Source: a virus. From it: a stretch of 20,426 bases of DNA. The position numbers and the translations under genes are program-made. The stretch covers positions 1-20,426 of IMG/VR virus record IMGVR_UViG_3300030090_005340; one strand, written 5' to 3'. The number at the start of each line of letters is the position of its first letter. Position 1 is the stretch's first letter. Below the pieces are notes generated by a model. It was not told the DNA's origin. It did no database searches and saw only the letters and a program-made list of their open reading frames with translations. Shown here one piece after another: positions 2,446 to 16,653 of the stretch.

Positions 2446-3240
2446 TTAGCCCGTAAAGAAGTCAGGTGGTAGTTCGTACTTGTCTTGCAATGTTTCTTCG
2501 ATTTGATTCATCTCTTCGTTCGCACTTGACATAAGTTGATCGGCATTGAATTGCACGCCTCCGGGTAGACTAATGTTTTGATATTTGCTAAGATTCATCC
2601 CCCATTGTTTTTTGAATGATGCCGTGACATATCTTTTCAACAAAATGTCGTTATAGATTTCAGTATAATTGTCTGGATCAAGTGAGACATAGCAATCCAA
2701 AACAATAAAATCACCCACGCTTACAGTTTCAGACCAATTCATGTCAAGATAAACTCTGTTGGTTACACGACTAAATCTAATTTGTTTTTCTGGGTCAAGA
2801 AAGTCAGCGAGTAATTTTATGTAAGTCTGTGTGATATAATAATTTGACATATCACCACCATATCTCAGACCATATGAGTCATTGAGTGCCATTTGATATC
2901 GAATGCTGAACATGTTTGATCCAGCACCACCTTCATCAAACTGAAAGGCTTTGGTCACTGATACGATTCTCGCAGCACTTTCTACCTGTGGATAATCGTT
3001 GGGTCCAGTCAGTCCAAGTGTGTCCGTATCAATAAATCCATTATCGATATCTGTTTGAGTAATTTCGTGTTTGTATAAGGCACGCTCTACACCGTCAAAG
3101 TGATACTCATTGAACATCTGAATCGCATCATCGAGTGAATCCTCAAGTTGAGCATCGTCAACATTAATCTCGATTACGGGTGCGCCGAGTTTTCTTAGAG
3201 CATACTGTTTTAGTTCTTCGCGTGTCGTTGGTGTTGCCAT
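2446..3240 (-). CDS. 13: Neck protein, gp13-like (head completion)
   Basis: gp13 binds the portal vertex after packaging and, with gp14, forms the neck that accepts the tail. The N-terminus is the clearest signature in the window: TREELKQYALRKLGAPVIEI (6-25) and DDAQLEDSLDDAIQMFNEYH (28-47), a helical pattern shared by marine T4-like gp13 proteins. Later signatures are MALNDSYGLRYGGDMSNYY (about 112-130), a QIRFSRVTNRVYLDM strand region and a helical segment LLKRYVTASFKKQWGMNLSK. The length of 264 residues compares with 309 for T4 gp13. It is the only gene here preceded by a sizeable non-coding gap. AAGGAG lies 8 nt before the ATG and could be occluded by a hairpin. It is the first gene of the tightly coupled 13-14-15-16-17 block. 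Confidence 0.94.
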   Translation of the reverse strand: MATPTTREELKQYALRKLGAPVIEINVDDAQLEDSLDDAIQMFNEYHFDGVERALYKHEITQTDIDNGFIDTDTLGLTGPNDYPQVESAARIVSVTKAFQFDEGGAGSNMFSIRYQMALNDSYGLRYGGDMSNYYITQTYIKLLADFLDPEKQIRFSRVTNRVYLDMNWSETVSVGDFIVLDCYVSLDPDNYTEIYNDILLKRYVTASFKKQWGMNLSKYQNISLPGGVQFNADQLMSSANEEMNQIEETLQDKYELPPDFFTG

Positions 3241-3248
3241 CTAAATCG

Positions 3249-3254
3249 CTCCTT
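3249..3254 (-). promoter_or_regulatory. Ribosome-binding site of gp13
   Basis: AAGGAG on the minus strand, 8 nt before the ATG at 3240. It fixes that ATG as the gp13 start and overlaps the 3' arm of the inverted repeat. Confidence 0.75.
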
Positions 3255-3258
3255 GTCC

Positions 3259-3265
3259 TTTTATA
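3259..3265 (-). promoter_or_regulatory. TATAAAA element, possible weak late-promoter -10
   Basis: TATAAAA on the minus strand sits in the hairpin loop, 18 bp before the gp13 ATG. It matches the first six bases of the T4 late promoter consensus TATAAATA but not the last two. If used, transcription would begin near 3252, so the RNA would lack the 5' hairpin arm. The leader would then be only about 12 nt, which is short, so the promoter call is tentative. Confidence 0.3.
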
Positions 3266-3333
3266 TGTATTGGAGCGAGGCTTCCTACGTCTTTTGATAC
3301 TGTCTTTTGGATGCTTATCGTTATCTTTTGACA

Positions 3334-4479
3334 TTACAGACTAAGGAAATCGATTTGCTCAAGTTCTCTAACTGTGGTGAAAGCACTAATTTTATCAAAC
3401 TTTGAAGGAATTGTTGTATTCAACGCTCTTGTGAAGGCATCATTCAAGATCATGTCAAATTCAGACGCACCAGTAAAGCCCGTGAAAGGATGAGCATCAG
3501 CCGTAGCAGATCCACCGCTGGTGACTGAAAGTGGGAAAGTGCCGCCGCTGATACCGGGAACAACGATTTCAGAGATGAAGGCTGCGTCCGCCGTGGCGTA
3601 GACTTTATGATTTGCCTCAATCAATGTTTGGAATCTTTGTAATGTGTTTAGTAAACTTGCATTTACTTGGTATGTGACAGTGCCACCACTGACATTGAAT
3701 GTAGATGTTACGTCAGACGAAACTGTGGCTGGCATTTGTTGAAGAACATCGGTTCTAAAATCATTGAATTGAACGATGGTTCTTGCAATGTTTGGCACTA
3801 ATGGGTCTGGACCAAGGAAAGGATTCGCAACCAAAGTGGTAGTGATACCATTATTCATATTTTCAAGAGAGTTTCCTGCTGTGATGTCAAGGAACCCTGT
3901 AGCACCAGTCACACCAAATGTTCTACCGACTCCAAGCAGATAAAACCCAAATGTAAATCCACCACTTACTCCGCCTGTACCCACATTGTCAAGGCTACCA
4001 CCAAAGTAACCTTGAAGAGTCAGCCCAGTGGTGGTTTTGATTTGAATTTCATCCATGTGTTCTGCTGTGAAGTAACCTGCCGTGGCTGCAATATACAAAA
4101 AGTGCGTGCTTCTTGGATCAATTTGAGAAATGGTTCTGTTCTCTGGAGCGAGCGTAGCACCGAGGTTTGATTTAGCGACAGTGGTTGCGAACTTAGTCGA
4201 ATTTTTTATACTAGGAGACTTTTCACCAGTCTGAATGAAATTTCTTCTACTATTAGTATCTGCAAAAAATCGACTCGAAATAAACTCACGAAGTTCCCTG
4301 TTTGTGCCTACAGTGATGCCTCCATTTTGTGCATAGTCTGTAGTCAAACCAGAAGCAGCCAAAAATACTGAGTCTGCCGTGAAGGAGAGAAGGTTTTTAT
4401 TTAGATAATTACCATCACTGTCGAACACAAGCACGGTTCGATTGCCGAAATACGGTCCACTATATGTTTCTCCGGGCAT
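3334..4479 (-). CDS. Virion structural protein of unknown function in the wac (fibritin) position
   Basis: I do not recognise this 381-residue protein. It lies between the collagen-like fibre gene and gp13, the position T4 gives to wac, whose product forms the neck whiskers. Nothing in it resembles a long fibritin coiled coil: the sequence is rich in Gly, Thr, Ser and Phe and looks mainly beta-structured, with glycine clusters at about 160-200 (for example GTGGVSGGFTFGFYLLGVG) and a GVTGATG motif near 188. The N-terminus (MPGETYSGPYFGNRTVLVFD) shows no signal peptide, and no transmembrane helix is evident. The C-terminal third is more helical (SLLNTLQRFQTLIEANHKVY; FDMILNDAFTRALNT). The start is supported by AGGAGA 7 nt upstream. 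It begins 14 bp after the fibre gene, so it is probably co-expressed with it. A neck, collar or fibre-associated structural role is inferred only from context. Confidence 0.72.
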   Translation of the reverse strand: MPGETYSGPYFGNRTVLVFDSDGNYLNKNLLSFTADSVFLAASGLTTDYAQNGGITVGTNRELREFISSRFFADTNSRRNFIQTGEKSPSIKNSTKFATTVAKSNLGATLAPENRTISQIDPRSTHFLYIAATAGYFTAEHMDEIQIKTTTGLTLQGYFGGSLDNVGTGGVSGGFTFGFYLLGVGRTFGVTGATGFLDITAGNSLENMNNGITTTLVANPFLGPDPLVPNIARTIVQFNDFRTDVLQQMPATVSSDVTSTFNVSGGTVTYQVNASLLNTLQRFQTLIEANHKVYATADAAFISEIVVPGISGGTFPLSVTSGGSATADAHPFTGFTGASEFDMILNDAFTRALNTTIPSKFDKISAFTTVRELEQIDFLSL

Positions 4480-14592: not shown

Positions 14593-16653
14593 TTAAAATT
14601 CAAAAGTAAATCTAAACAAATCAGTTTGCTCTGTCACTCGTCTGATCTCTTGTGTCAGCCCTTTTATGTATAATAGTTCTCCAGAAAATAAGTCTAACTC
14701 TGGTCCTTCAACACTTTCAATGACCCCAGTTACCGGATTGTCATTCACAATGTAGGTCAAGTTTTCATTTGGAACAAATGATAATGTTGAACCGGAAACA
14801 TTTGACACATCTGTGAGAAGAATTATCCTTTTGTCAAAAACGTCTGCATCTGGATCATCTGGACTGGAGTACGGAAGAACAGCCGTGATATTTCCATGAC
14901 TACCAGAACTACCTGTTGCACCTTGGTCCTCATTCGGAACGTACATGCCGTCAAAACCAAAATCAACAAGGAGTTTATGCGTGCATCTCCAATCAGTTTT
15001 TGCAATTTCAATAACCGTGTCATCATAAAAAGTGTTTGAGACTTCTACATCTCCGGTTGAACTGGTTCCTGTAAACTGACCATCAGCATCAGTTTGCAGA
15101 AGGGTCACTTTTTCGCCGCGAACAAATGGCTTGCTCATGTCAAATGCCGTTACGGTGGCAGATAATCTTGATGTTTGAGATGTGTCTTTGATTTCAACAA
15201 ATTCTTTTGTTGTGTCACCATACAAATATTTTGTTCCTGCCACCCTCTCAGTGGATTCAGTAAGTGATTGAATTGATCCCGTAGTGCCGGAAACATCGAT
15301 TCTTGTGGAGGTTCTGTCAAGATATCCTGCTTTGTTTCCAGCACCACTTTGCTCTGCTCCTACACTTGGATTAGCCCATAGGACAATATCTCTGTAATCA
15401 TTACCCAAAAGTTGCTCAACATTATTTTCGTCATCACCTGCAATAGAAACTTGAATTCTTGCAATATTAGAAAACAACTCAAAAACAGGATCTCTACCAA
15501 CGCTTTGTGAAATCAGTGGGGTCAAAGTAGGAAACTCTGTGGGGAAAGCATCTGTGTCCGACCCCTCGCCTGTGAAAACTGTCGCAGAGGCAGAGGAATA
15601 CCCAGTGCCTTTATCGTAGAGAATGACAGATTGTATTTTTTTATTTTGGTCTAAAGAACCAAAACCAGCGGCGTTTCTACCGTTTCCAGAGATTGAGATA
15701 CCAACCCCAATCTCGAATCGATCTTTGTTTCGGGGACTTCTGTTTGTCTCAAAGCCTGATTCAAGTGTGAGGATATCTTGAGCGTCACCGTTTGCCGTCG
15801 AGGATTCGATTCTCTTCACGACACCTGCGGCATCCCCAGTCAAAAAACGGATATAGTAGTTTTTATAATAATTTGTAAACGCATCATTGTCGGAGGGTAC
15901 GATGTTTGGCTGGGTGATCATCACCCGATTTCCGTCAGAAAACTCAACCTCATTATTTTTATTTGTGGGGACACCTCTTTGAAAAACGATCCCAGTTGGA
16001 TCAGAAACCACGACTTGATCTACGATTCCACTAGAGGCATCAAGATTTGCTTCATACTGAACTGCGTATTGATTTTGTCTTTCGTCTTGATACACATTGT
16101 AAATACCTTTATAATAAGGTAAGGACAGGGCGGGAATATAATCACTATCAATGAATTTCAAATGACTACCCGGAATGGTATACATAAATTTCCATTTGTA
16201 GCCATTCGGCAAGGTGATTGGGCTAGTATCAGTGCCAATTGGTTGATGTAATGAACCCACCTCACCCCCGCCATTGGACAAACAAACGTAAACATTGTTT
16301 TCATTTGTCACCACATAAAAAGGTGGAGGTGTGCCAGTGTTTGATTCGTCATGCACCTCTGACATATCATCCGCAGTGTCAAGAGGGGACATCGTGATAC
16401 CTGATGTCCAGTCTACCCTTGGGATCATAAGTGTCACATCAGATGGTGATATTCTTTTTGCATAAGAAATGTTTCTTCTTGTAATTACATCACGCTCTCC
16501 ACTTCTGTGTTCAAGTGGAGGGTTTTGGGTTGGAACATCATTAATTTGACCAATACCCAAAAACACCTTATTTTTACCAAAGGGTTGAAAGTCAGACACA
16601 AAGTTTTTTGCAATTTGTGTTTTTAGTTGTGCGTCAAAAGTATACTGTGCCAT
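14593..16653 (-). CDS. 8: Baseplate wedge protein, gp8-like (enlarged)
   Basis: gp8 is a core component of the baseplate wedge, binding gp7, gp10 and gp53 in T4. The N-terminal third carries family signatures: SDVTLMIPRVDWTSG (71-85), FYVVTNENNVYVCLSNGG (112-129) and LPNGYKWKFMYTIPGS (148-163). The C-terminus ends with SGELLYIKGLTQEIRRVTEQ and TDLFRFTFEF, matching the conserved closing segment of gp8 (a SGE-x-x-Y-I pattern near the end). Its 686 residues are about twice T4 gp8 (334). The extra length lies in the middle, where a module with VILYDKGTGYSSASATVF appears; a similar pattern occurs in the preceding gene. AGGGAG before the ATG supports the start. It follows the gene 7 position protein by 11 bp and precedes the DUF4815 protein by 10 bp. 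Confidence 0.86.
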   Translation of the reverse strand: MAQYTFDAQLKTQIAKNFVSDFQPFGKNKVFLGIGQINDVPTQNPPLEHRSGERDVITRRNISYAKRISPSDVTLMIPRVDWTSGITMSPLDTADDMSEVHDESNTGTPPPFYVVTNENNVYVCLSNGGGEVGSLHQPIGTDTSPITLPNGYKWKFMYTIPGSHLKFIDSDYIPALSLPYYKGIYNVYQDERQNQYAVQYEANLDASSGIVDQVVVSDPTGIVFQRGVPTNKNNEVEFSDGNRVMITQPNIVPSDNDAFTNYYKNYYIRFLTGDAAGVVKRIESSTANGDAQDILTLESGFETNRSPRNKDRFEIGVGISISGNGRNAAGFGSLDQNKKIQSVILYDKGTGYSSASATVFTGEGSDTDAFPTEFPTLTPLISQSVGRDPVFELFSNIARIQVSIAGDDENNVEQLLGNDYRDIVLWANPSVGAEQSGAGNKAGYLDRTSTRIDVSGTTGSIQSLTESTERVAGTKYLYGDTTKEFVEIKDTSQTSRLSATVTAFDMSKPFVRGEKVTLLQTDADGQFTGTSSTGDVEVSNTFYDDTVIEIAKTDWRCTHKLLVDFGFDGMYVPNEDQGATGSSGSHGNITAVLPYSSPDDPDADVFDKRIILLTDVSNVSGSTLSFVPNENLTYIVNDNPVTGVIESVEGPELDLFSGELLYIKGLTQEIRRVTEQTDLFRFTFEF

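Follow-up and report, generated by a model that had tools for sequence, protein, structure and literature searches.

Introduction

In phage T4, the leader hairpins of genes e, soc, 49 and I-TevI are alike in that the Shine-Dalgarno (SD) sequence is paired in the longer transcripts, and at e and I-TevI the late promoter is placed so that the 5' strand of the helix is missing from the late RNA (available sections of PMC3014915 and PMC2988022). The hairpins of segB, mobE (Aeh1), I-TevII and I-TevIII follow the same plan, with a sequestered ribosome site and a promoter nearby (PMC2988022, same sections). A promoter within a hairpin had previously been reported in a few T4 genes and in mobile endonucleases, on longer early or middle transcripts. 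Gene 13 is absent from the lists of regulated genes in the available sections of these two papers, and we found no description of such a hairpin at gene 13 in the open-access papers searched. As for late promoters outside T4, NATAAATA serves as one in cyanophages and cyanomyoviruses (PMC2984593, where the available text mentions no hairpin), and the inverted repeat in the psbA 5'-UTR is a different case (PMC5931967, in part). Late promoters were retained in one study only if they were intergenic or lay within 10 bp of the upstream gene (PMC3037559, in part), and their prediction was unsuccessful in pelagimyophages (PMC7029224, in part).

Here we analyse the leader of a gp13-like gene in an IMG/VR virus record of 20,426 bases (IMGVR_UViG_3300030090_005340), the whole of which we call the window. 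An earlier note had proposed that a hairpin and a promoter in its loop form a translation switch at this gene.

Results

The gp13 leader and its neighbourhood

The window carries T4-type structural genes on the minus strand, in the order baseplate wedge genes, fibre genes, gp13, gp14, gp15, gp16 and the start of the terminase large subunit. The features of the leader are:

3334..4479, minus strand: 381-aa ORF upstream of the small ORF, its stop overlapping the small-ORF start (TAATG); no family match
3164..3334, minus strand: very basic 56-aa ORF (MSKDNDKHPKDSIKRRRKPRSNTYKRTRSDL...) with a TAATG start, containing the 5' arm, the promoter and the SD
3272..3278, minus strand: hairpin 5' arm, TCGCTCC, which encodes Arg-Ser in the small ORF
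3264..3271, minus strand: AATACATA in the loop, T4-like late promoter -10 element (NATA[ACG]ATA type), enriched at relatives' gene starts and invariant in the clade
3259..3265, minus strand: TATAAAA in the loop, the earlier promoter candidate, overlapping the end of AATACATA
3256..3259, minus strand: predicted transcription start region, about G3258, 5-7 nt past the promoter element
3249..3254, minus strand: gp13 SD, AAGGAG, read from the sequence
3246..3252, minus strand: 3' arm of the hairpin, GGAGCGA, covering the GGAG of the SD and invariant in 12 aligned clade members
2446..3240, minus strand: gp13-like neck/head-tail adaptor gene, 264 aa (phrog_211, head-tail adaptor Ad2, E 2.4e-43), ATG at 3240-3238

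Close relatives in IMG/VR, by gp13 identity, are L001 (98%) and L002-L012 (69-88%). A gp13 protein search among named phages returned 2049 records, every one below 60% identity, with the best matches in Synechococcus, Stenotrophomonas, Pelagibacter and similar phages; neither a megablast of the window nor a distant blastn of one relative's hairpin matched any phage. The gene preceding gp13 differs among clade members, with the stretch from the arm to gp13 kept; a recombination boundary at the gp13 leader is likely in this clade.

A late promoter-like element in the loop

The earlier note had placed the promoter at TATAAAA, with a match at six of eight positions, a count that the sequence bears out (TATAAAAG against TATAAATA). 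A late promoter-like site does lie in the loop, but its likelier position is AATACATA (3271-3264), 6 bases upstream of TATAAAA. We prefer this register because TACATA persists in clades whose following bases change and because genes in the window's clade have an excess of NATA[ACG]ATA sites upstream of them; TATAAAA is a possible but less favoured candidate. In T4, transcription from late promoters starts 5-7 nt after the promoter element, which would put the 5' end here at about 3258 and give a leader of about 18 nt, the 5' end still falling inside the 3245-3260 interval named in the earlier note.

In the window and five contigs of its clade, all of them related, NATACATA occurs 13 times within 60 bases upstream of gene starts where an even spread predicts 0.54, NATAAATA 7 times (0.35 expected) and NATAGATA 8 times (0.22 expected); a T at the fifth promoter position was never seen upstream of gene starts in this clade. 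Six of the 13 NATACATA gene-start sites belong to gp13 itself. G006, a 118-kb relative, has 13 of its 29 NATACATA sites upstream of genes, as called by a rough purpose-made ORF caller. A sigma-70 scan found sites no more often than in shuffles, and none on the minus strand at the hairpin. Elsewhere in the window, a 1865-aa ORF has TATACATA about 83 bases ahead of it, at 14665-14672 (minus strand) and within the last part of the gene before it, possibly as a late promoter.

A small reading frame across the leader

The break before gp13 had been taken for the only sizeable gap in the window, which it is not: the 93 bases from 3333 to 3241 hold most of the 5' half of the 56-aa ORF (3334-3164), which an ORF list with a 60-aa limit had missed and which overlaps gp13 by 77 nt in a different frame. 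This frame is open in all 12 relatives L001-L012, from about -85/-106 to +71/+83, with L006 needing TTG as its start and L008 GTG or TTG. In its non-overlapping part, 227 of the one-base codon differences are synonymous and 190 non-synonymous, against 31:296 and 44:378 for the other two frames. The ORF gave no Pfam match, a best E of 5.4 against PHROGs and two weak matches among phage genomes (best E about 2). Similar basic peptides with RSYTYK[RK] occur in L013, L017, L048 and L065, where the Arg and Ser codons differ, and the same stretch lies in an open frame in L040, L043 and L080, of which L040 and L080 have no recognised start. Several viral clades have peptides of the form RS[YN]TYK[RK] encoded before gp13, none of them in a database family.

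Codons 18-29, which span the promoter and the SD, are near-invariant even at third positions, while the third positions of codons 1-15 all vary; there is therefore a constraint on the DNA or RNA atop the coding constraint.

The hairpin in the window and its clade

The perfect 7-bp inverted repeat described in the earlier note (3246-3252 and 3272-3278) is present, with a loop of 19 nt, and its 3' arm covers the gp13 SD. Such a repeat is by itself ordinary in the window and means little, since perfect 7-bp repeats with loops of 3-25 number 46 in the whole window and 41.9 in 20 shuffles. Conditioned on flanking the promoter-like site and covering the SD, the stem is modestly unusual (p=0.020 and p=0.010 in two tests of 300 shuffles each). 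A 54-nt core folds at -13.4 kcal/mol (z -2.92), equalled by 2 of 200 shuffles; the 121-nt range from 3340 to 3220, which the earlier note had wanted folded, includes the stem, but its overall fold is not unusual (-18.3 kcal/mol, z -1.34). The comparison with a transcript started at the promoter, also suggested there, went in the anticipated direction: the predicted mean unpaired probability of the SD is 0.33 in read-through RNA and 0.81 in promoter-started RNA with its 18-nt leader. The corresponding predictions for the relative L062 are 0.00 and 0.56, and the modelled effect in the window is graded and weaker than in L062. By prediction only, the SD is thus paired in the longer transcript, as at e and soc; motif and position likewise place the promoter so that its RNA would lack the 5' arm.

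For the window's clade, we regard it as possible, though clearly short of probable, that the 7-bp complementarity is incidental and that a real late promoter and SD lie inside a conserved small gene, the arm being conserved because it codes for Pro-Arg-Ser. The abundance of 7-bp repeats in the window and the coding constraint on the small-ORF frame fit such a coincidence, and so do the arm changes, which fall at third codon positions of CGN and TCN. None of the 7 pairs shows a compensatory change among the 12 window-clade sequences, and L002 breaks one pair with an A.G mismatch. Covariation of the arms in related phages was the yardstick set by the earlier note, and the clade alone therefore does not prove the structure; arm conservation within it is confounded by the small ORF. 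Coincidence accounts less well for the rest of the variation, which is C/U opposite G, both common arm variants retaining G.U pairing, or for the 98.7% of cells in which the stem is kept across the 12 aligned sequences, against at most 50.6% for slid versions of the stem, a control biased towards any structure that was read off the sequence in the first place. L002 itself is predicted to refold into an alternative stem (CCUC/GAGG plus UCC/GGA, z -2.31) in which the SD would still be hidden (0.18 unpaired in read-through RNA, 0.97 in promoter RNA). The same arrangement, with covariation, at gp13 of relatives also argues against an incidental stem.

The hairpin at gp13 of relatives

In many loci, TATAAATA (or CATAAATA or TATACATA) lies upstream of gp13 in the loop of a stem that pairs perfectly or nearly so, and the 3' arm of this stem is the SD; examples of arm pairs are CTCCTTGGTT/AACCAAGGAG, CTCCTTGATT/AATCAAGGAG and GATCTCC/GGAGATC. 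Among 96 deduplicated gp13 upstream clusters (243 loci), 48 carry NATA[AC]ATA and 48 do not. With significance taken from shuffles of the upstream side only, a flanking stem that covers the SD was found in 18 of the 48 motif-bearing clusters at p<=0.05 (13 at p<=0.01), the other 30 lying above 0.05. The set left out L081 (the window again), L090 (short leader) and L128, L129, L155, L159 and L200 (partial or too short). Three additional scans, with queries picked for having hairpins, supplied another 194 loci (of 197, without L493, L427 and L402); of the 62 clusters with the motif in this set, 19 had the stem at p<=0.05 and 15 at p<=0.01. Several loci are one contig fetched twice, and the 80% clustering removes near-duplicates, not ancestry, so that relatedness among clusters remains in the permutation tests.

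The stem is concentrated at gp13. In 14 contigs, 10 of 14 gp13 leaders had it at p<=0.05 and 8 at p<=0.01, compared with 7 and 2 of 74 other motif-bearing gene starts in the same contigs. The strict pattern CTCC-TATAAATA-GGAG occurs three times in 14 long records, once each in contigs of 108, 118 and 78 kb and always at gp13; its reversed control occurs nowhere. Several relatives, L016, L040 and the sister group L013 among them, keep the promoter and show no significant SD hairpin.

Covariation was measured in 35 clusters whose sole selection criterion was [CT]TCC..promoter..GGAG, with the arms anchored by CTCC/GGAG since a MAFFT alignment of the hairpin misaligned them. Inner pairs form in 95 of 140 cases, as against 64.9 with partners swapped (maximum 83), and outer pairs in 74 of 105, as against 48.2 (maximum 64); for neither did any of 5000 permutations reach so high a value. 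The covariation that was looked for is therefore strong across relatives and missing from the clade. The switch logic of the earlier note fares likewise: position, gene-start controls and covariation speak for it in relatives, and the case is weaker for the window itself.

Some further arrangements were seen. L256 (G012 near 49374, minus strand) is a second case of a promoter within a stem, its arms GCCTTCTAT/GTAGGAGGC covering the ribosome site ahead of a 478-aa gene (p=0.007), and the L055 and L057 leaders have the reverse geometry, with CATAC/GTATG arms and the SD in the loop. Among L062, L076, L053 and L044, L045, one group has phrog_1401 (unknown) upstream of the hairpin and another has a gene for a PAAR-like protein (phrog_281); in L002, L006, L008 and L009 the preceding gene varies and the leader block and gp13 are constant.

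Besides T4, our survey covered eighteen phage records, from named phages or single cells. The arrangement is absent from most of them (P-SSM2, S-T4, S-SRM01, Melnitz-2, S-SZBM1, P-TIM40, S-WAM1 and others). Pelagibacter phage Mosig is the only surveyed record with a similar stem and TATAAATA in its loop, at a borderline p=0.096, and in HTVC008M pairing over the AUG was noted by eye. The T4 wac-13 gap (L289 7594-7624) holds a strong GC hairpin, GGGGCC GCAA GGCCCC, just before the gene 13 SD, with no late promoter in its loop.

This short T4 gap with its GC hairpin would also suit a hairpin that ends upstream transcripts before gp13 while the loop promoter starts a new one, and T-runs follow the stem in some relatives (L076 and L102, ATTTTTTT; L208, AGTTTTTT), with at least 5 T in 8 bases in 5 of 20 tallied. 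We nonetheless hold termination to be unlikely: the other 15 fall below 5 T in 8, and the window, with 3 in its tail CGATTTAG, lacks the GC-rich stem plus T-run of an intrinsic terminator and yields nothing at the hairpin on the minus strand in a terminator scan. What the hairpins have as their common denominator is SD pairing. In the L076, L102, L118, L208 and L224 leaders the stem is terminator-like, having a T-run after it, and its loop holds a late promoter. More improbable still is a DNA or processing element, in which the palindrome round the late promoter would be a protein operator or an RNase site separating transcripts: I-TevI operators overlap late promoters in T4 (PMC2988022, available sections), but the arms differ widely between clusters while complementarity is kept, unlike a single DNA-binding site.

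Discussion

The anatomy of the leader, the promoter-like motif at gene starts, the covarying arms of relatives and the concentration at gp13 can be read directly from the sequences and their statistics. On balance they lead us to favour, with some reserve, a cis-acting, promoter-specific translation switch at gp13. RNA reading through from the upstream (fibre) genes would contain both arms and fold the hairpin over the gp13 SD, whereas RNA started at the loop promoter AATACATA (about 3258) would come without the 5' arm and leave the ribosome site free. We infer that the promoter is active, that RNA 5' ends lie there and that translation responds in this way. gp13 would then be expressed mainly from its own late promoter, whatever fibre cassette lies upstream, and genes 14-17 would follow its expression as far as they are coupled to it. 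Judging from sequence, the window probably belongs, as a weak case, to a widespread gp13 counterpart of the T4 gene e/soc switch that operates between one late transcript and another. In many uncultured T4-like viruses, probably only messages started at the loop promoter would be translated. The weaker hairpin of the window's clade may work like the strong ones.

The genes upstream of gp13 are structural and therefore presumably late, so that the switch would distinguish one late transcript from another. It may insulate the neck-terminase block from exchangeable fibre genes, a reading that fits because the upstream genes differ while the arm-to-gp13 block is kept. Ribosomes translating the small ORF would cross the hairpin and might open it. 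The composite idea of a widespread, gp13-centred, late-to-late insulating switch in which, in the window's clade, opening of the hairpin in read-through RNA depends on whether the 56-aa ORF is translated is offered as a tentative and rather doubtful one. If true, promoter, RNA hairpin and overlapping ORF would make a three-layer device in about 95 bases. Recurrence with covarying arms at one virion gene suggests that environmental T4-like phages sort late transcripts mutually, and late-to-late sorting gives a prediction that can be checked from RNA-seq 5' ends. Late promoters may also sit in unannotated small genes and so be hidden from intergenic-only searches.

The likeness to T4 e and soc drawn in the earlier note would hold for the mechanism and not for the transcripts that are sorted. 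e and soc sort early from late, with early or middle read-through silenced and the late product delayed, whereas gp13 here follows other structural genes and the sorting would be of late from late. The T4 leader hairpins also differ in that the window has its 5' arm and promoter inside an overlapping small ORF. The homing-endonuclease hairpins belong to mobile genes inserted among others, while gp13 is a virion structural gene. The cyanomyovirus NATAAATA, in the available text on it, is of the same promoter class as the element found here, the window's clade having mostly C or G at the fifth position.
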